A DNA stretch of 64,000 bases from Mycobacterium sp. Root135. GTDB taxonomy: Bacteria; Actinomycetota; Actinomycetes; Mycobacteriales; Mycobacteriaceae. Where the stretch lies: positions 248,001 through 312,000 of the forward strand of contig NZ_LMEZ01000004.1 in assembly GCF_001426545.1 (NCBI RefSeq), read 5' to 3'. Below the pieces are notes generated by a model. The model had not been told where the DNA came from, did not search any database, and worked only from the letters and a program-made list of their open reading frames with translations. Positions 5,976 to 25,728 of this stretch are shown piece by piece. A program made the translations under genes and the position numbers. Positions within the stretch are counted from its first letter, which is position 1. Each line of letters opens with the position of its first letter.

Positions 5976-7445
5976 TCAGTCTGTAGAACCGAACTCCAAC
6001 GCCGGCTCCGCCGAGTCGACGTGCCCGTTGCTGATGATGGTCAGCTCGTCGGGTCGCACCTGGTACCTGGCGCCGTCGGCCGGGTTCACGGCGTCGAAGC
6101 CGCTGCCGGATGGCACCGCGTTGGAGAGCCGCACGTTGGCGCCGTCGCGCAGCCGTTGGCCGTGGTAGTAGTAGCTGCCCGACGACTCCTGGCAGATGAC
6201 TGCCAGCGACGACGCCGTCCTGATCGCCGCCACCGCCGTCCCCGTGTCGCAGCGGGCGGCCTCGCCGACGAAGCCCTTCGCGTCGACGTTGGACACCCCG
6301 GACAGCTTCGCGGTGGTGGTGGTCGGCGTGGCGGTGGACGTCTCGGTCTCCGACGTCGAGCTGGGCGGCGCTGCGAGGGGGGTCCGCGGCTGCGGGTCGG
6401 CGCTGCCCCCGGTGAACACGATCGCCGCGGCCAGCCCCGCTGCCAGCCCGAGGGTCGCGACGGTCCCGGCGAGCAGCAGCTTCTGGGTGCGACCGAACCG
6501 CGAGCGGGTCACCGGTGCAGGGGTGGCGACGGCGGGGTGCGGCACGTACGCCGGCGGCCGCTCGGCCGCAAACTGCCTGGTGTGGGGTGGTGCGACGGGT
6601 GGGGGCGACGCGTGGACCGCGGCGGCCGCCGCCCTGGCCAGCTCGCCCGCCGTGGTGAACCGGTCACCGGGGCTCTTCGCCATGCCCTTGGCGACCACGG
6701 CGTCGAACGCGGGGTTGACGCCCGGCCGCACCTCGCTGGGCCGCGGCGGCGGCGCGAACATGTGCGCGCTCATGACCTGGCGGATGTCGGCCGCCTCGAA
6801 CGGCGCCCGGCCCGTCAGGCACTCGAACAACAGACACGTCAGCGAGTAGACGTCCGACGGCGGTCCGCCGGGTGTGCCGCCGAGCCGCTCGCTGGCCATG
6901 TACGCGCACGACCCGATGATCATCCCGGTCCTGGTGACCGTCGCCTCGCCGCCGCCGTTGGCGATGCCGAAGTCCACCAGGTAGGCGAAGTCCTCCGGGG
7001 TCAGCAGCACGTTCTCGGGTTTGATGTCGCGGTGCACCAGGCCGTTGGCGTGGGCGGCGTCCAGCGCGGCGGCGACCTGGCTGACGATCGCCACCGTCCG
7101 CTGCGGGGGCAGGACACCCTTGACCCGCAGTTCGTCCTTGACGCTGCCGCCCTCGACCAGGCGCATGTCGATGTAGAGGACCCCGTCGATCTCGCCGAAA
7201 TCGTGCACGGGGATGACGTGGGGTTCCTGCAGTCGGGCCGCGATGCGCGACTCACGCCGGAACCGGTCCCGGTAACTCGGGTCGGTGGCGACGTCGGCCC
7301 GCAGGATCTTCAGGGCTACCGTCCGCTCACGCACCGTGTCGTAGGCACGGTAGACCTCACCCATGCCGCCCATGCCGATGAGTTCTTGCAGCTCGTAGGG
7401 TCCGAATCGCGTGCTCGGACGCGGTCCAGCACCCGGGGACGCCAT
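5976..7445 (-). CDS. Membrane-anchored PknB-type Ser/Thr protein kinase
   Basis: The 489-residue kinase has a Hanks-type domain at residues about 17-280: glycine loop GMGGMGEVY, catalytic Lys 46 (VALK), HRDIKPEN with Asp 140, DFG at 158-160. A proline-rich linker follows, then one membrane helix at about 321-344, then a 145-residue extracellular part rich in Ser/Thr near the membrane and carrying two cysteines (EAARCDTG and AVICQES) that could pair. No known sensor repeat such as PASTA is visible. Start ATG 7443-7445 is chosen because GAAGGATC precedes it; the longer frame to 7649 crosses a large palindrome. The usual APE motif reads ASE (YMASERLGG), a mild deviation. Confidence 0.93.
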   Translation of the reverse strand: MASPGAGPRPSTRFGPYELQELIGMGGMGEVYRAYDTVRERTVALKILRADVATDPSYRDRFRRESRIAARLQEPHVIPVHDFGEIDGVLYIDMRLVEGGSVKDELRVKGVLPPQRTVAIVSQVAAALDAAHANGLVHRDIKPENVLLTPEDFAYLVDFGIANGGGEATVTRTGMIIGSCAYMASERLGGTPGGPPSDVYSLTCLLFECLTGRAPFEAADIRQVMSAHMFAPPPRPSEVRPGVNPAFDAVVAKGMAKSPGDRFTTAGELARAAAAAVHASPPPVAPPHTRQFAAERPPAYVPHPAVATPAPVTRSRFGRTQKLLLAGTVATLGLAAGLAAAIVFTGGSADPQPRTPLAAPPSSTSETETSTATPTTTTAKLSGVSNVDAKGFVGEAARCDTGTAVAAIRTASSLAVICQESSGSYYYHGQRLRDGANVRLSNAVPSGSGFDAVNPADGARYQVRPDELTIISNGHVDSAEPALEFGSTD

Positions 7446-7627
7446 AACCGATCCTTCCCTCACTTCGTTTCGGGGCTCACTCCTGGGTGACCTGGCGCGA
7501 TACCGAAGCCGAAGCAGCACAAGCCAATTGATTCGTGCCCAGGGTACAGGGCCGCACGGCCGCGTGCGTTCTCGCCAGGATCGCCCGGATCGTCGCCGGG
7601 GGTATGCCCACCCGGTCTGGAACTCGT

Positions 7628-7670
7628 TATCACCGGCGATATCACTCATGCAGTGATATCGCCGGTGATA
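7628..7670. repeat. Perfect 19-bp inverted repeat made of two operator-like half palindromes
   Basis: Two perfectly complementary 19-base arms (7628-7646 and 7652-7670) are separated by CATGC. Each arm contains a near-palindrome of its own, TATCACCGGCGATA or its complement, so the element is two 14-bp sites in opposite order. It lies between the 40-residue protein gene and the kinase, both on the minus strand, 182 bp before the kinase. There is no T-run on either side, so it is at least as likely to be a paired operator as a terminator. Confidence 0.65.
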
Positions 7671-18201: not shown

Positions 18202-19281
18202 TTACTGACCCGGTTCGTGGAAGCGGCCGATGATCGGGATGCGTTCGATGATCCGGTCGCGCAACCGAGGCTGCTGCGGCGGCGGTGGCGGGGGCACGTA
18301 GACCGGTGGGGGCGGCGGCGCGGCGGCGGGCGGCGGGACGTACGCCGGTGCGGCAGCGGGCGGGGGTGCCTGCGGCACCGCGACGGTCATCGTCTTCGCG
18401 ACGACGTTCGGGATGTCGGGGAATCGAACGGCCGAGCGGCCGGCCGGCGGTGGCGGTGCCACAACGCGTTCGGGTTGCGCTGCGGCACTGAGGTTCTCGA
18501 CCGGCTCGTCCTCACTCAGGTTGAGTCCGATCGCGATCGACAACGAGACGACGAACGTCACCACCGCGACGGCGAGCACACCGAACAGGACGCCGGCTCG
18601 CCGCGGCGGCACGTCCCCGAGCGGAGGGCCCGACATGTCGAGCGTCCTGGCGGCGACCAGTGCCGCGCCGCGGGCCAGCGCGAGGTCGGCCTCCGCGGCC
18701 GAGAAGACGGGCGCCTCGGTGATGGCCTCGAAGGCGGTCACGATGACCCCGACGTCGTCGGAGCCGATGACGAAGATGGCGGCGGGCTCGCGGTCCAGCA
18801 CGGCGATGACGCTGCTGGTGAGTTCGAGCGCGTCGTCCCTGTCCGCGGGGCGGTCGACGTAGTGGACCGTCACCTCGCCGCCGTCGACCACCGCCACGAA
18901 GGCCGAGTCCGGCTCGACGATGCACACGGCGACGTCGTCGTAGTCGGTGATGTCGGCGACGCCTTTGGCCAGGGCGGCGACCGCGGCAGTGTCCGAGACG
19001 GGCGCGACGTCGCGGTGACCCCGCGCCACCAGGGCGTCGACGACGGCGGCCGCGGCCGGACCGGCGTCCGCGGTGGAGGTGACGCCGACGACGCGGATCC
19101 GGTCCTCGGCGACGACGGCGGGGTTCAACACCGCGTGGACCAGCAGATCGGCGTCGACGTCGTCGATCGCGGGGATGTCGAGCTCACCGCGGTCGATCGG
19201 GTCGCCCTCGCCCGTCGACCCCTCGACGAGCACCCAGCGCAGCGCCGCCGTGGTGAGCGACAAGCCGAGGACGAGGTCCAT
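18202..19281 (-). CDS. DUF7159-like membrane protein with proline-rich C-terminus
   Basis: The 359-residue protein begins MDLVLGLSLTTAALRWVLVEG, the usual opening of mycobacterial DUF7159 proteins, whose fold resembles an actin-like or hydantoinase-type ATPase half. Residues up to about 225 form that domain. One membrane helix follows (VLFGVLAVAVVTFVVSLSIA, about 245-265), then a region with long Pro/Ala runs and a basic end (RDRIIERIPIIGRF). ATG 19281 is preferred to the longer frame, which lacks coding character. Function is unknown. It follows the receptor kinase gene on the same strand by 161 bp. Confidence 0.8.
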   Translation of the reverse strand: MDLVLGLSLTTAALRWVLVEGSTGEGDPIDRGELDIPAIDDVDADLLVHAVLNPAVVAEDRIRVVGVTSTADAGPAAAAVVDALVARGHRDVAPVSDTAAVAALAKGVADITDYDDVAVCIVEPDSAFVAVVDGGEVTVHYVDRPADRDDALELTSSVIAVLDREPAAIFVIGSDDVGVIVTAFEAITEAPVFSAAEADLALARGAALVAARTLDMSGPPLGDVPPRRAGVLFGVLAVAVVTFVVSLSIAIGLNLSEDEPVENLSAAAQPERVVAPPPPAGRSAVRFPDIPNVVAKTMTVAVPQAPPPAAAPAYVPPPAAAPPPPPVYVPPPPPPQQPRLRDRIIERIPIIGRFHEPGQ

Positions 19282-19442
19282 GAAGGTCACGTTACCGCTG
19301 GGGGCAAGCACCCTGGCTTGACGCGGCCGCAGACCGAGGGGCCAACAACTCCATCCGACGCCGCCGGAAACCCAGGTCGACACACCCGGCCAGACTCGAT
19401 ATCACCCGTGACATCAACTCCCAGAACGTGTCTGGGCCGGCG

Positions 19443-21254
19443 CTAGCGGGCCCCGTTGATCACCGGTGCGTCGATCAGCCCCTTCTCGATGCCCCACTGG
19501 GTCGCGATGGTCCGGTACTCACCCGTCTTCATCAACTGTTCCAACCCCTGCTTCAACGACTCCGCCAGGCCGGACCCCTTGGCCACCGGCCAGCCATACG
19601 ACGCGGAGTCCGTCACCTCCCCCGCCGTCTCCAGCACACCGGCGCTGAGCTTCACCGCGAAACCCGTCACCGGCGAATCCGCCGACATCGCGTCGACCTC
19701 GCCTGCCACCAACGCCTTGGTCAGATCGTCCTGCCGGGTGAACACGACCATGTCGATCGGCGACAGCCCCGCCGCTGCACACTCGTCACTCTTGGCCGGG
19801 ATCTCCTTGGTCTCCTGCAAACCGCCCTGCGCCACACCGACTTTCAGTCCACACGCCGCTGACGGCTCCACCGACGTCCCCGCCCGGCGGGCCCACAGGT
19901 TGCCTGCCGAGAAGTACGTCACGAAGTCGACGTCCTGCTCCCGATCGGCGGTGTCGGTGAACGACGACGCCCCCACGTCGAAGTTGTCGCCCTGCACCGA
20001 CGGAATGATGCTGGCGAACGCCGTCTCGCGATAGTCGGCCTCCAGCCCCAACGTTCGCGCGATCGCGTTCATCAGGTCGACGTCGAAGCCGACGATGTTC
20101 CCCTGCGAATCCTTGAACTCGTTGGGGGCGTACGGAACGTTGATCCCGATCACCAACCGGCCGGACTGCCGGATGTCCGCCGGCACCGTGGCCGCGATCG
20201 ACGGCACCGCGCCAGCCCGCAGACTCGGATCCGGCGGCGCCGTGCTGTCCTCGACGGCGGCCTGCCGGGGGTCGTCCTGCTCGGATCCGCTGCGCCACTG
20301 CACGACTCCGAACGTGCCGACCGCGGCGATCAACACCACCGCCGACACGACTGCGACCATCGTCCGGGTGGGACGCCAGACGCCGCGGGTCGGAACCCGG
20401 CGCGCAGAATGCCGACCGGAACGGCCGCTGCCCCGCACGGGCGCATTCAGCGCGCGACGCGCGGCGGCGGCCAGTTCGGCACCGGTCTGATACCGCTGAG
20501 CCGGCTTCTTGGCCATCCCCTTGGCGACTACGTCGTCGAAGGCCGCCAGTCGCGAGTCGAACGCCGACGGCCGCGGCGGCGCCTGCACCATGTGCCCGGC
20601 AATCTGCTGCTCGAGGCTGTCGGCGGGGAAGGGCCGAGAACCCGTCAAGCTCTCGTACAACACACAGGCCAACGCGTATATGTCTGACCGCGGGTCGCTC
20701 TGCCCCGCGTCGAACCGCTCCGGCGCCATGTACGCCAACGTGCCGAGGGTGTTGCCCGCCGTCGTCATGCCCTGCTCGCCCGCGGTGCGCGCCAAACCGA
20801 AGTCGATCAGATAGGCGAACTGCTGCTTGGTGAGCAGAATGTTGGACGGTTTGACGTCCCGGTGGATCAAGTGTTCCTGGTGAGCGGCGTCCAGTGCGGT
20901 GGCCACCTGCTCGACCACCTCGACGGCCAGCGTCGTGTCGACGGGCCCTTCGCGCTCGGCGAGAATGTCCCCGAGGGTCTTGCCGTCGATCAGTCGCATG
21001 TCCAGGTACAGCCGGCCGTCGATCTCGCCGTACCCGTGGATCGGCACCACGTGCGGGTCGGTCAGACTGGCCGCGGCCTGCGATTCCCGGCGAAACCGCT
21101 GCTGGAAGACCTTGTCCTCGGCCATGTGCGGTGGGAGCACCTTGAGCGCGACGACGCGATCGGTTCTGGTGTCATAGGCGCGGTAGACCTCGCCCATTCC
21201 ACCGCGGCCCAGCAGCTCGCGCAGCTGATAGTGACCAAATGACGTCGCGTCCAC
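19443..21254 (-). CDS. Receptor Ser/Thr kinase with extracellular amino-acid-binding-protein (SBP type 3) domain
   Basis: The 603-residue protein has a PknB-like kinase at about residues 8-270: GRGGMGEVY, Lys 38, HRDVKPSN with Asp 133, DFG at 151-153, APE at 177-179. A basic juxtamembrane stretch (275-297) leads to one membrane helix at about 299-319. From about residue 360 to the end lies a complete type 3 solute-binding-protein fold: RLVIGINVPYAPNEF, IVGFDVDLMNAIARTLGL, IIPSVQGDNFDVGAS, and QWGIEKG at the end. Such domains bind polar amino acids or opines in ABC importers. Here the domain would sense the ligand directly and control the cytoplasmic kinase. All catalytic motifs are intact. 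The dehydrogenase-like gene 45 bp upstream is probably co-transcribed. Confidence 0.93.
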   Translation of the reverse strand: MDATSFGHYQLRELLGRGGMGEVYRAYDTRTDRVVALKVLPPHMAEDKVFQQRFRRESQAAASLTDPHVVPIHGYGEIDGRLYLDMRLIDGKTLGDILAEREGPVDTTLAVEVVEQVATALDAAHQEHLIHRDVKPSNILLTKQQFAYLIDFGLARTAGEQGMTTAGNTLGTLAYMAPERFDAGQSDPRSDIYALACVLYESLTGSRPFPADSLEQQIAGHMVQAPPRPSAFDSRLAAFDDVVAKGMAKKPAQRYQTGAELAAAARRALNAPVRGSGRSGRHSARRVPTRGVWRPTRTMVAVVSAVVLIAAVGTFGVVQWRSGSEQDDPRQAAVEDSTAPPDPSLRAGAVPSIAATVPADIRQSGRLVIGINVPYAPNEFKDSQGNIVGFDVDLMNAIARTLGLEADYRETAFASIIPSVQGDNFDVGASSFTDTADREQDVDFVTYFSAGNLWARRAGTSVEPSAACGLKVGVAQGGLQETKEIPAKSDECAAAGLSPIDMVVFTRQDDLTKALVAGEVDAMSADSPVTGFAVKLSAGVLETAGEVTDSASYGWPVAKGSGLAESLKQGLEQLMKTGEYRTIATQWGIEKGLIDAPVINGAR

Positions 21255-21299
21255 CGTCTACTCCTTGGCGGCAGCCACCCCCGTGGCTGTCGATAGAAG

Positions 21300-22433
21300 T
21301 TACCTCACGTGCGGATACTCCGCCGACCGCTTCTGAAATGCGAGAATGTCCGGATTGACGATGTTGCCGTCGCGGATCTCGATGGCACGACGTACCGTCT
21401 CGTCGTCGTCCCACTCCGTCGGCCCGGCCAGAATCGTTGACAGGTAGGGGATCAACGCCTCGCTAATCTCCCACGTCGCGGCGTTCCACAGGTAGGACGG
21501 GCTGTGGTCGACCGCGTAATACGTGATGTTGTTGCCGACGATGAACGTCGGATCGTCGAACGACGTCGGCAGCGCCCAGCTGAAACCCATTCCGGCGTCG
21601 CACGATACGTCGATGAACAGGCTCCCCGACCGGAACGCTTCGAGGTCGGCCTCGTGCAGGAAGACCAACGGGGCGTTGGGGTCCTGAAGCACGCAGTTCA
21701 CGACGACGTCGTGCTCGGCCAAGTACTGGGCCAGCCGCACCCGGCCGTCGTCGGTCAGCGCGAAGCTCGAGCCTTGCTCGTCGGACTCGAACTGCACGAT
21801 CTCCGCCGAGTGAATCGGCGACGCCACTTCGGAGACGTTGCGGTTGGTGAGGATGTCGATGTCGTGGACGCCGATGGCGTTCAGCGCCGTCACCGCGCCG
21901 CGGGCGGTGGCGCCGAATCCGATCACCGCGGCGCGCAGCCGTCGCCCGTAGGTGCCGGTCGACCCGATGATCTCCAGCGCGTGCAAGACCGAGCAGTAGC
22001 CGGCCATCTCGTTGTTCTTGTGGAACACGTGCAGCTTGAACGAGCCGTCCTTGCGCCACAGGTTCATCGCCTCGAACGCGATCAACGTCAGGCGGCGGTC
22101 GATCGCCTGCTGCGTCAACTCCGCGTCCTGCACGCAGTGCGGCCAGCCCCAAAGGATCTGTCCGTCGCGAAGTTCGGCGAGGTCGCCGGCATCCGGCTTG
22201 GCCAACAGGATGACGTCGCACTCGGCGATCAGCTCTTCGCGCGACCGCACGCCCGCCACCGAACGCGACAGTTTCTTGTCGGAGATGCCGAAGTGCTCGC
22301 CGTAGCCGCGCTCGAGATAGATCTGCCCGATGACGCTCTTGTCGATGCGGTCGAGGTGCTCCGGATGGATCGGCAGCCGGTGCTCGTTCTCCTTGTGCGT
22401 ACGTGCGATGACGCCGAGCTTGAGTTCGCTCAC
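21300..22433 (-). CDS. Alanine dehydrogenase / N5-(carboxyethyl)ornithine synthase-like enzyme
   Basis: The 377-residue protein has the two-domain layout of alanine dehydrogenase and transhydrogenase alpha subunits: N-terminal KLGVIARTHKENEHRLPIHP with the conserved Arg and Lys, and a Rossmann domain AAVIGFGATARGAVTALNAIG at about 205-225. Several stretches (GWPHCVQD, FIDVSCDAGMGFSWALPT, VDHSPSYLWNAATWEIS) are nearer to carboxyethylornithine synthase, which joins pyruvate to the side-chain amine of ornithine, than to alanine dehydrogenase. I therefore infer an amino-acid or opine-type dehydrogenase. GTG 22431-22433 is preceded by GGGAGGG. Upstream ATG codons lack such a site. It precedes the receptor kinase. 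Confidence 0.75.
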   Translation of the reverse strand: MSELKLGVIARTHKENEHRLPIHPEHLDRIDKSVIGQIYLERGYGEHFGISDKKLSRSVAGVRSREELIAECDVILLAKPDAGDLAELRDGQILWGWPHCVQDAELTQQAIDRRLTLIAFEAMNLWRKDGSFKLHVFHKNNEMAGYCSVLHALEIIGSTGTYGRRLRAAVIGFGATARGAVTALNAIGVHDIDILTNRNVSEVASPIHSAEIVQFESDEQGSSFALTDDGRVRLAQYLAEHDVVVNCVLQDPNAPLVFLHEADLEAFRSGSLFIDVSCDAGMGFSWALPTSFDDPTFIVGNNITYYAVDHSPSYLWNAATWEISEALIPYLSTILAGPTEWDDDETVRRAIEIRDGNIVNPDILAFQKRSAEYPHVR

Positions 22434-22601
22434 GTGGCCCTCCCGAGGCATGGTCATCCCCGAAGCCGGGATGCCGACTCGGTGATTAGACCGTACTCGA
22501 CCAGCCGTCGGCGATCCCATTTCGCCCACGTGTCAACGAAATTGACACCTCGCCGATATCCGCGTCTACTGGAGACCTATCAAGAATTCGAGGCGCCGTT
22601 C

Positions 22602-22823: not shown

Positions 22824-23642
22824 TCAGCGGATCGAGACCAGCTGGTCGATCGAGTCGCGTGGCAAGAGCCCGTCGACGATCGCCGTGACGTACATCGAGT
22901 TCAGGGTGATGGCGCCCTTGTGGTTGACCAGGAAGGCCGTGTCTGCGGCGTCGCCCCCGGTGGAGATCCGCACCAAACTCTGGCGAGGCGCGAGCAACGT
23001 CGCGTCCACGACGCGCCACTGCCCCTCGACGAACGCCTCGGCGACCGCGTGGAAGTCCATCGGATAGAGCCCCGGCGCGTAGACCGCGACCATGCGGGCG
23101 GGCACGTTGACCGCACGCAGCAGCGCGACGACCAGGTGGGCGAAGTCGCGGCACACCCCGGCGCCGGCGAGCAGCGTGTCGACCGCCCCGTCGATCGGGT
23201 CACTGGACCCCGGCACGTAGTTCAGCCGGCTGCCCACCCACGACGACACGTGTTCCAACACGGTGGCCGAGTCGGCGTAACCGCCGAATTCCGTTGCGGC
23301 GAAACCGTAGAACTTGTCGGCCTCGGCATATCGGGTCGGCCGGAGATACCGCGACAGGTCGTAGTCGGTCACCGGAGCCGGATCGGTCTGGCCGATGACG
23401 GTGGCCGAGTAGTTCACCTGCAGATTGCCCCCGGCCACCTGAAGCTGGTGAATCCGGTTGCCGTGCTCACCGCTGATCTCCTTGGCCGGCACGGCAACGC
23501 CGTCCAGCACGAACGTCAACGCTTCCCACACCTCGGTGTTCGGATGCGGCGCGATCGCGACCTGGAATTCCAACGTGGTCGGCGCGGTGACGTCGACGTC
23601 GAGCCCGCAGGCCACCTCACGCCGCATCACGTCACCCGTCAT
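22824..23642 (-). CDS. Transglutaminase-like (cysteine protease fold) protein
   Basis: The 272-residue protein has an N-terminal beta-rich domain and a C-terminal transglutaminase core with the full triad: Cys 164 in GAGVCRDFAHL, His 198 in PMDFHAVAEAF, Asp 213 in WRVVDATLL. Bacterial members act as proteases or amide hydrolases. No signal peptide is present, so it is probably cytoplasmic. Its ATG overlaps the stop of the preceding gene (ATGA), and it is last in a three-gene overlapping cassette with a glycosyltransferase. Confidence 0.88.
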   Translation of the reverse strand: MTGDVMRREVACGLDVDVTAPTTLEFQVAIAPHPNTEVWEALTFVLDGVAVPAKEISGEHGNRIHQLQVAGGNLQVNYSATVIGQTDPAPVTDYDLSRYLRPTRYAEADKFYGFAATEFGGYADSATVLEHVSSWVGSRLNYVPGSSDPIDGAVDTLLAGAGVCRDFAHLVVALLRAVNVPARMVAVYAPGLYPMDFHAVAEAFVEGQWRVVDATLLAPRQSLVRISTGGDAADTAFLVNHKGAITLNSMYVTAIVDGLLPRDSIDQLVSIR

Positions 23643-24568
23643 TCAGCGACGGCCGAAAAGCGTTGCGCGTTCTGCATCGCCGACAGCACGGCCAACGTGG
23701 ACATCGCACCCTGGTTGCGGTCGACGCCCTCGCTGCCGAGACCGTCGAAACCACCGCCGGTCAGCGAATCCCACATCGGCTCGCCGGAGCCGTTGGCGCC
23801 CTCGAACCACGCGGCAGCCGCGCGGACGGCGTCCGGCCACTTCGGGCTGGCGTCGACGCCTGCCGCTCGGGTGCAGGCGTCCGACATCTCGGCGACCGCT
23901 GCGGGCTGACGGTCGACCACCTCGTCGTCGAGCAAGCCGTTCAACAGGTCCAACCCCTGCTGGCACAGTGCGGGCCGGTCCAGCGTGGTGCCTGCGGCGA
24001 TCATCGCCTCGGCCATCACGGCCGCGCCGGGGGCCTGCGCCGACGACTCCGAATCGGCGAAGGCGGTCAAGAGGGCGCGGGCGATCGCGTGGTCGGGTTC
24101 CACCGAGAGGACCTCGGCGGCACCAAGTGCGGCGTACGCCATCGCGAGCGGAGACGGCGACCGCACCTTGCCCGAGCGCTCGAACTGGATGACGGCGACC
24201 CGACGGACCAGACCCACGCTGCTGTGCGCGGCGGCGGTGCCGAGCGCCCACAGGCACCGGCCCCACCACACTTCGAGGGACGGCTGGTCGACCCAGTTGC
24301 CCTTGCTGTCCATGTGGTTGCGGCACGGACCCGCGTACGACTGCGCGTCGTTGAGGTAGCGCACCGCGAGACCGGCGAGACCGTTGACGGCGCCGTCCGG
24401 GTCCGGCTGACGGGTGGCGACGACCAGCAGCCGGGCCATGTCGTCGGTGCGGTAGCCGCCGCTGCGCTCGGGCTCGGTCAGCAACGCGTGTTCGAACGTG
24501 CCGCGCCGGTCCGAGAGGTGCAGCAGATGGTCGAAGACCGGAAGCGGTGTCGAATGTGGTTCGGTCAC
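23639..24568 (-). CDS. Probable alpha/alpha-barrel protein paired with a glycosyltransferase
   Basis: The 309-residue protein is helical and Ala-rich, with repeated helical hairpins and aromatic loop motifs (RSGGYRTDDMARLL, NHMDSKGNWVDQPSLEVWWGRCLWALG, GGFDGLGSEGVDRNQGAMSTL) that resemble the helical-barrel glycosidase/epimerase folds. The paired Asp and Asn/Gln in these loops could line an active site. I cannot name an activity. It starts in an ATGA overlap with the glycosyltransferase and ends in an ATGA overlap with the transglutaminase-like gene, so the three are translated together. Confidence 0.7.
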   Translation of the reverse strand: MTEPHSTPLPVFDHLLHLSDRRGTFEHALLTEPERSGGYRTDDMARLLVVATRQPDPDGAVNGLAGLAVRYLNDAQSYAGPCRNHMDSKGNWVDQPSLEVWWGRCLWALGTAAAHSSVGLVRRVAVIQFERSGKVRSPSPLAMAYAALGAAEVLSVEPDHAIARALLTAFADSESSAQAPGAAVMAEAMIAAGTTLDRPALCQQGLDLLNGLLDDEVVDRQPAAVAEMSDACTRAAGVDASPKWPDAVRAAAAWFEGANGSGEPMWDSLTGGGFDGLGSEGVDRNQGAMSTLAVLSAMQNAQRFSAVAE

Positions 24569-25728
24569 ACCATCGCCGCGCGATCGGCGACGACCCGGCG
24601 AGCGAGCGCCAGGTACGCGGTCGCCGATTCTGGCCAGCCCATCGACGGCGCCAAACGTCGCGCCTCCGCGGCCATGTCACCGGTCATCCGGGGGTCGGTC
24701 AGCATGCGGCGCAACGCCGTTGCCAGCGCTTCGGGGTCGTCGTGGTCGACGACGATGCCCGCTCCGCTGCCGAGAAGTTCCACGGCATGTGGGAAGGCGG
24801 TGGCGACGACCGGCCGTCCCGCGGCGAGCGCGTCGACCAGCACGCCGGAGTTGGCCTGATCGGTGGAGTCGTACGGCAACACCACAGCGGCCGACGTCTG
24901 GATCAGCGCCGACAGCGACGCGGTGCTGCGGTAGATGGAGTCGAAGCTCACCGCGCTCGCGACGCCGGCAGCCTTGGCCCGCTCGATGCAGGCTTCCCGG
25001 TAGGCCTCACCCTCGGCGGCAAGCACGTTCGGGTGCGTGGCACCGGCGACGAGGTAGCGCGGCTGGCCGCGCAGGTCCTTGAGCCCGCCCATGGCGTCGA
25101 TGACCCGCTCGACACCCTTGCCGGGGCCCATCAGGCCCCACGTCAGGAGCGTCGGTCGGCCCGAGCGCTTCAGCGGGGCCACCGTCGGCAGCGTCGCGCC
25201 GCGCTGGATGGTGACGACCTTTCCGGCGTCGACCGCGTAGTCGGCGCAGAGGCGCTCGTTGGCCGAGCGGGACATGACGACGACCCGGTCTGCCTTGGCG
25301 ACCAGGGTCTCCATCGCCGAACGCTGTTGCGGCGTCGGGTGTTTGAGTACTTTGTGGGCGACGACGATGGTCGGGACCCGCAGGTCCTCGACGACGTCGA
25401 GGATCTCGGCGCCGAAGACGTCGTAGTCGTGCTGGATGACGGCGACGTCACGCTGATTCAGCAGTTCGATGCACGCGCTGACCGATGCGGACGAACCGTT
25501 GACGAACTCCCCGATGACCGCCTTGCTCGTCGGCTCGGCACCATCGGCGACGCGAATCACTCCGACGTCTGATCCATTGCTGGACAGACCGTTGGCCAAC
25601 CCCGCGCTGAACGTGGCGAGGCCACATGGCGTCGGCGGAAAGCTCGTGAGAATGCCGAAGGTCGGATTCAAGCGTCGTTCCGGCGCCATGTGGCCGATGA
25701 AGGACGGAAAACGGGTTGGAACGTTCAA
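24565..25728 (-). CDS. Family GT4-type glycosyltransferase
   Basis: The 387-residue protein has a GT-B fold: N-terminal SFPPTPCGLATFSAGLANGL, and C-terminal donor-site motifs TWGLMGPGKGVERVIDAM and LPYDSTDQANSGVLVDALAAGRPVVAT (the usual E-x7-E is partly replaced around residue 315). The sugar and acceptor are unknown. TTG 25728 gives the longest product and has GGGA upstream; ATG 25689 would remove 13 residues and lacks a ribosome binding site, so the start is uncertain. First gene of the three-gene cassette. Confidence 0.85.
   Translation of the reverse strand: MNVPTRFPSFIGHMAPERRLNPTFGILTSFPPTPCGLATFSAGLANGLSSNGSDVGVIRVADGAEPTSKAVIGEFVNGSSASVSACIELLNQRDVAVIQHDYDVFGAEILDVVEDLRVPTIVVAHKVLKHPTPQQRSAMETLVAKADRVVVMSRSANERLCADYAVDAGKVVTIQRGATLPTVAPLKRSGRPTLLTWGLMGPGKGVERVIDAMGGLKDLRGQPRYLVAGATHPNVLAAEGEAYREACIERAKAAGVASAVSFDSIYRSTASLSALIQTSAAVVLPYDSTDQANSGVLVDALAAGRPVVATAFPHAVELLGSGAGIVVDHDDPEALATALRRMLTDPRMTGDMAAEARRLAPSMGWPESATAYLALARRVVADRAAMV

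Follow-up and report, generated by a model that had tools for sequence, protein, structure and literature searches.

StpK7 of Mycobacterium sp. Root135: a receptor kinase whose outer sensor is kin to an amino-acid transporter binding protein

The 64,000-nucleotide stretch of Mycobacterium sp. Root135 analyzed here (contig NZ_LMEZ01000004.1, positions 248,001 to 312,000; hereafter the window) carries stpK7, a gene encoding a receptor Ser/Thr kinase with an outer solute-binding protein (SBP) domain. We observed that this sensor domain is closely related to the SBP of an amino-acid ATP-binding cassette (ABC) transporter encoded by three genes, and from conflicting kinase and sensor trees we read that the window lineage's sensor was exchanged by recombination. 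StpK7 is probably a receptor kinase whose outer SBP domain binds a free amino acid, closure of the lobes switching the kinase. The sensor kinship and the sensor exchange are what this analysis adds, the architecture itself being already in print.

A known mycobacterial receptor kinase

The kinase of the window is StpK7, a membrane kinase already known from mycobacteria: it scored 1102.9 bits over residues 1-602 against the NCBIfam StpK7/MSMEG_1200 equivalog NF052427 (cut-off 900) and therefore belongs to it, and it has its full-length architecture in common with StpK7/MSMEG_1200 of M. smegmatis. The original prediction that a single chain combines an intact kinase with one membrane helix and a full type 3 SBP was borne out by Pfam, motifs and hydropathy. 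Pkinase covers residues 9-254 (E 2.5e-45), and the hallmarks of a Hanks-type kinase of the PknB/PknE group are all present, namely the glycine loop (GRGGMGEV at 16), the Lys (VALK at 35), HRD (HRDVKPSN at 131), DFG at 151 and APE at 177; the solved chain nearest to the kinase domain by sequence is PknE 2h34 (E 5.8e-84). Mean Kyte-Doolittle hydropathy exceeds 1.6 in nine 19-residue windows, all within residues 295-321 and nowhere else, and amounts to 2.21 at residues 301-319. SBP_bac_3 covers residues 367-588 (E 8.5e-28), and AlphaFold2 returned a confident two-lobe SBP model for residues 349-603 (mean predicted local distance difference test score 90.3), so that the outer domain, as modelled, does not lack the ligand pocket on which the earlier claim depended.

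The joining of kinase and SBP in one chain had been put forward as a novelty. It is no discovery of ours, because an NCBIfam equivalog for StpK7 exists, the architecture was already remarked upon in a discussion in mBio in 2018, and the gene occurs in many genomes of the genus. At E<=1e-250, stpK7 was found in 185 of 396 genomes of the genus, 183 of them above the NCBIfam cut-off. A sample of the family contained it in 11 of 21 genomes of the same genus versus 0 of 230 others (E<=1e-200), and full-length matches in a phylum sample of 296 came from three genomes, all of the same genus (E<=1e-90). At these strict thresholds, the StpK7 family is confined to the genus in the samples searched.

According to two reviews, which credit the finding to Li et al. 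2023 (Cell Host Microbe), the regulator MSMEG_1198 is a phosphorylation target of StpK7 in M. smegmatis; in this way StpK7 holds down a phage-defence island, and phage TM4, which needs StpK7, can infect. The island is described as BREX-like, one review placing it at MSMEG_1191-1200, whereas no PADLOC family was detected among the five window neighbour proteins tested; the recombined sensor described below is a further difference from StpK7/MSMEG_1200. Passages around the names StpK7 and MSMEG_1200 in the open full-text literature report no StpK7 ligand and raise neither an origin from a transporter nor an exchange of sensors, although these ideas were not searched by name and the subscription literature was not covered.

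StpK7 also stands apart from other sensing systems with comparable parts. The GlnH-GlnX-PknG system for aspartate and glutamate is made up of several proteins, among which GlnX transmits across the membrane, whereas StpK7 unites SBP, membrane helix and kinase in one chain and does not belong to that system. The periplasmic-binding-protein sensor of PDB entry 3h7m is part of a histidine kinase, while StpK7 is a Hanks-type Ser/Thr kinase.

Sensor kinship, probable sensor exchange and the ligand pocket

Within its own genome, the sensor has as nearest paralogue a stand-alone SBP (L096:6668-7522), 61% identical over residues 342-602 and adjoined by an ABC permease and an ATPase, which makes it part of a three-gene amino-acid transporter in the window's genome. 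Its core pocket residues are the same as those of the StpK7 sensor, but the latter is kinase-linked and has a different loop at positions 127-131 in sensor numbering. Of the 185 stpK7 genomes, 175 contain a transporter SBP of this kind (E<=1e-112), versus 40 of 211 other genomes of the genus, an association that must partly reflect shared ancestry. When a sensor tree of 132 rows was built, 92 kinase-linked sensors lay beyond one long branch (support 97/100). As the only outgroup is a very distant one and the tree is not firmly rooted, we can only infer the direction of capture, from transporter family to kinase; a sensor so derived would share the transporter's ligand class. A single stand-alone row, P0304 (on a 1677-base contig), falls among the kinase-linked sensors. 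This SBP is of the lipoprotein type; it begins like the transporter SBP and continues like a kinase-linked sensor (L045 clade), and may be the product of gene exchange or an assembly chimera.

The two halves of the window protein have different closest relatives. In the kinase-domain tree, the window groups together with L016 and L017 with loci L018-L020 (support 100/99), while in the sensor tree the same three group with L021 and L047 (100/99). Approximately unbiased (AU) tests on 39 picked rows rejected each grouping on the other domain (p 0.00071 and 0.00098), the tested groups having been named after the first trees were inspected. Nucleotide identities follow the same pattern: over the kinase (residues 1-280) the window is 80.7-82.3% identical to L018-L020, 76.2% to L021 and 73.9% to L047, and over the sensor (residues 350-603) 74.8-76.2% identical to L018-L020, 81.2% to L021 and 79.7% to L047. 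In 40-residue steps from residue 392 on, L021 is always nearer than all three of L018-L020, with L047 trailing in the last step; before residue 392, L021 is ahead of all three only at 21-60 and 81-120. At the pocket edge, positions 429, 452, 476 and 478 distinguish the swapped sensor from those of its kinase sisters L018 and L020; positions 477 and 479 further distinguish it from that of L018.

Such conflicts extend through the family. In a set of 78 rows, the kinase tree has 49 well-supported splits, 11 of which are contradicted by splits of the sensor tree that are themselves well supported. In control comparisons under a simpler model, the two kinase halves conflicted in 3 of 34 splits and the two sensor halves in 0 of 34, compared with 8/34, 8/34, 13/39 and 8/39 when kinase halves were set against sensor halves. 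Because the conflicts between the domains outnumber those inside either one, we read the trees as pointing to repeated sensor exchange among stpK7 alleles.

The pocket of the sensor was compared in 86 distinct kinase-linked and 39 stand-alone SBP rows, its columns being mapped via the AncQR alignment and matching spacing, not by direct alignment with LAO. As described in PMC4192606 and PMC5740067, LAO locks the free alpha-amine with Ser72 and Asp161, binds octopine when carrying Q122A, and faces the basic side chain with an acid, Asp11, for which OccJ and NocT have Glu; the opine-binder signatures are Gly97-Met117-His170-Ser207 in NocT and Ser91-Asn111-Thr163-Ala164-Asn202 in OccJ. StpK7 has the residues expected of a free-amino-acid SBP, that is, an Arg for the carboxylate, Arg438 (86/86 kinase-linked rows), and an Asp and a Ser/Thr for the alpha-amine, Asp526 (86/86) and Thr433 (84/86), along with Gln480 (85/86). 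Tyr375, Phe413, Arg438 and Asp526 are identical across all kinase-linked and stand-alone rows. The expectation of an amino-acid-type pocket thus gains support from these residues. By contrast, Thr433, Asn452, Leu479, Gln480 and Asp526 of the window protein reproduce one of the five OccJ signature residues and none of the four of NocT, so that StpK7 does not carry the signature of either opine binder. The opine binders NocT and OccJ have Ser/His or Asn/Ala where StpK7 has Asp526/Gln480, the Gln480 column holding His in NocT and Ala in OccJ. The single match to OccJ is at position 452, where the window has Asn, like OccJ Asn111, and 80 of 86 rows have Thr, although the mapping there crosses a gap. 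Judged by these residues, the StpK7 pocket resembles that of LAO more than those of NocT and OccJ and is likely that of a free-amino-acid binder.

The neighbouring dehydrogenase and the rival explanations

The gene upstream of stpK7 encodes an enzyme of the alanine dehydrogenase/PNT (AlaDH/PNT) superfamily, as judged by its fold and by the Pfam domains AlaDh_PNT_N and AlaDh_PNT_C. Its placement on the same strand, 45 nt from stop to start, agrees with what had been predicted. The longest open reading frame (ORF) extends to 22529, but a start giving 385 residues is likely, because this length equals that of the database entry P0121, which is 99% identical across the whole query. The enzyme falls below the alanine dehydrogenase equivalog TIGR00518 (66.3 bits, cut-off 391.85). 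Databases often label it N5-(carboxyethyl)ornithine synthase or alanine dehydrogenase, names given by the sources only, and no N5-(carboxyethyl)ornithine synthase was found among its PDB sequence matches. An N5-(carboxyethyl)ornithine synthase condenses pyruvate reductively with either ornithine or lysine.

The original prediction was that dehydrogenase and kinase may make and sense, or sense and use, an opine-like or basic amino-acid compound, and a lack of conserved pairing would speak against it. Such pairing is largely absent in relatives. Of 80 named stpK7 loci, seven (L016-L020, L023 and L064) have the dehydrogenase no more than 600 bp upstream and in the same orientation, with gaps of approximately 48 to 560 bp, that of L019 holding a called 65-residue ORF. 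In the 396 genomes of the genus, the dehydrogenase (E<=1e-100) was found in 99, stpK7 in 185 and both in 84, which leaves 101 of the 185 stpK7 genomes in which the enzyme was not found at this threshold. Both genes are on one contig with listed places in 54 of the 84: they are directly adjacent in 11 (52-563 bp by match ends), thus in 11 of the 185 stpK7 genomes, within 30.2 kb in 28 more, 26 of these with the dehydrogenase downstream and on the opposite strand, and farther apart in 15. A twelfth adjacent case, L125, is cut by the contig end. The odds ratio of co-occurrence drops from 10.9 to 2.3 (p 0.034) when the count is limited to transporter-SBP-bearing genomes, a crude control for lineage. 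Finally, 20 dehydrogenase loci were picked for the absence of a stpK7 match from the genome (13, from 15 such genomes) or for a distance to stpK7 of at least 1 Mb (7); in nine of them the enzyme lies near the transglutaminase gene of a cluster in the window. Since adjacency is rare, the dehydrogenase is often not found and it recurs beside the transglutaminase gene where stpK7 was not found nearby, we conclude that the two are often located in a common variable region and adjoin each other in a few lineages, but are not a dedicated pair. The window cluster itself is tight, lies on the minus strand at 22824-25728 and comprises transglutaminase-like, unknown 309-residue and glycosyltransferase genes; it is also met close to the dehydrogenase elsewhere, whether stpK7 lies in the vicinity or not.

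We favour the explanation that StpK7 would read, through its outer SBP domain, whichever amino acid the related transporter carries. The ligand would close the two SBP lobes, the movement would pass through the membrane helix, and kinase pairing and autophosphorylation may change in consequence; a swapped sensor would retune the ligand, and the dehydrogenase gene would serve metabolism, belonging to that variable region but not to the receptor. Everything in this scheme beyond the anatomy and the pocket is inferred. Three observations weigh against it: fold matches do not discriminate between ligands, the pocket-edge loop at residues 475-479 differs between StpK7 sensors and transporter SBPs, and OccJ N202D, with an Asp at the Asp526 column, is described as still binding octopine (6-16 nM). 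Because of this mutant, Asp526 opposes a NocT-like binding mode but does not by itself exclude octopine.

Could the dehydrogenase nevertheless make an opine-like N-carboxyalkyl amino acid that the kinase senses? The adjacency of the two genes in the window suggested it, but we hold this to be very improbable given the many stpK7 genomes in which the enzyme was not found, the modest co-occurrence among transporter-bearing genomes, a LAO-like pocket at Asp526 and Gln480 with so few opine-signature residues, and the near-invariance of Gln480, the counterpart of which had to be replaced in LAO (Q122A) for octopine to bind. A basic amino acid (Arg, Lys or Orn) as ligand would agree with the top Foldseek matches of the outer domain, which are AncQR, ArgBP and LAO, and with a score of 101.5 bits for the LAO family TIGR01096, albeit below its cut-off of 256.35. 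However, Asn372 replaces the acidic partner of the side chain in 84 of 86 kinase-linked and all 39 stand-alone rows. This speaks only weakly against a basic ligand and is not decisive, because ArgBP of T. maritima is described as having Ser in that column; we nonetheless consider such a ligand improbable. The outer domain might instead be a protein-docking or structural module contacting the ABC transporter or a wall component, small ligands being secondary, by analogy with GlnH, whose signal supposedly reaches PknG via GlnX; the presence of the transporter SBP in most stpK7 genomes would fit. This account appears unlikely, as Arg90, Asp178, Tyr27 and Phe65 (sensor numbering), invariant over 86 kinase-linked sensors, would not be needed for docking.

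If StpK7 is an amino-acid receptor, transporter kinship and the kept core pocket narrow the search for its ligand to the transporter's substrate, and recurrent sensor exchange would supply natural variants separating ligand from signalling. It is conceivable, though doubtful, that StpK7 is a nutrient receptor with swappable sensors, in which a single SBP capture gave a ligand class in common with the transporter, exchange of sensor domains between kinases retunes it, and extracellular amino acids, including those from lysed neighbours, set the level of the phage-defence island under StpK7 control in M. smegmatis.

Features and other genes around stpK7

Features of the stpK7 region (window coordinates)
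Feature	Position	Strand	Basis
stpK7 (603 aa, GTG start), Ser/Thr receptor kinase and outer SBP domain in one chain	19443..21254	minus	NCBIfam NF052427, Pfam domains, motifs, hydropathy
Predicted cytoplasmic kinase domain, residues 1-280	20415..21254	minus	Pfam, motifs, PDB sequence match
Predicted single membrane helix, within residues 295-321	20292..20372	minus	Kyte-Doolittle hydropathy
Outer type 3 solute-binding domain, residues 349-603	19446..20210	minus	Pfam, AlphaFold2, Foldseek
Putative recombined sensor segment, about residue 390 to end	19446..20087	minus	Sliding identity, AU tests; start approximate
Gap of 45 nt between dehydrogenase stop and stpK7 start, with hairpin	21255..21299	minus	Sequence reading, folding prediction
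Alanine-dehydrogenase/PNT-superfamily enzyme (385 aa)	21300..22457	minus	Pfam, NCBIfam, database match, fold

The gap between the two genes holds a perfect 7-bp hairpin immediately 5' of the AAGGAG ribosome-binding site of stpK7, with which a predicted outer stem pairs. An identical hairpin is present in L016 and L017, and the different gap sequences of L023 and L064 are likewise predicted to pair the stpK7 ribosome-binding site, but over 75 stpK7 starts there was no family-wide trend.

Directly downstream of stpK7, the window encodes a DUF7159/DUF7157 protein (18202-19383), and counting the window, 14 loci have a member of its family (F13) near stpK7. Directly upstream of stpK7, family F1 is the most frequent neighbour (15 loci), typified by a divergent 790-residue membrane protein (LPG_synthase_TM; L021:3111-5483); it was found in 37 loci and is not called near stpK7 in the window. 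The unnamed1 plasmid of M. frederiksbergense LB 501T carries a stpK7 copy (L093, 10001-11796) whose frame looks broken, the length of the match not being a multiple of three and only about half of it aligning in one piece. A second PknE-like Ser/Thr kinase is encoded on the minus strand of the window at 5976-7649, 51% identical to StpK7 over residues 3-288 and with a C-terminal part unlike that of StpK7.
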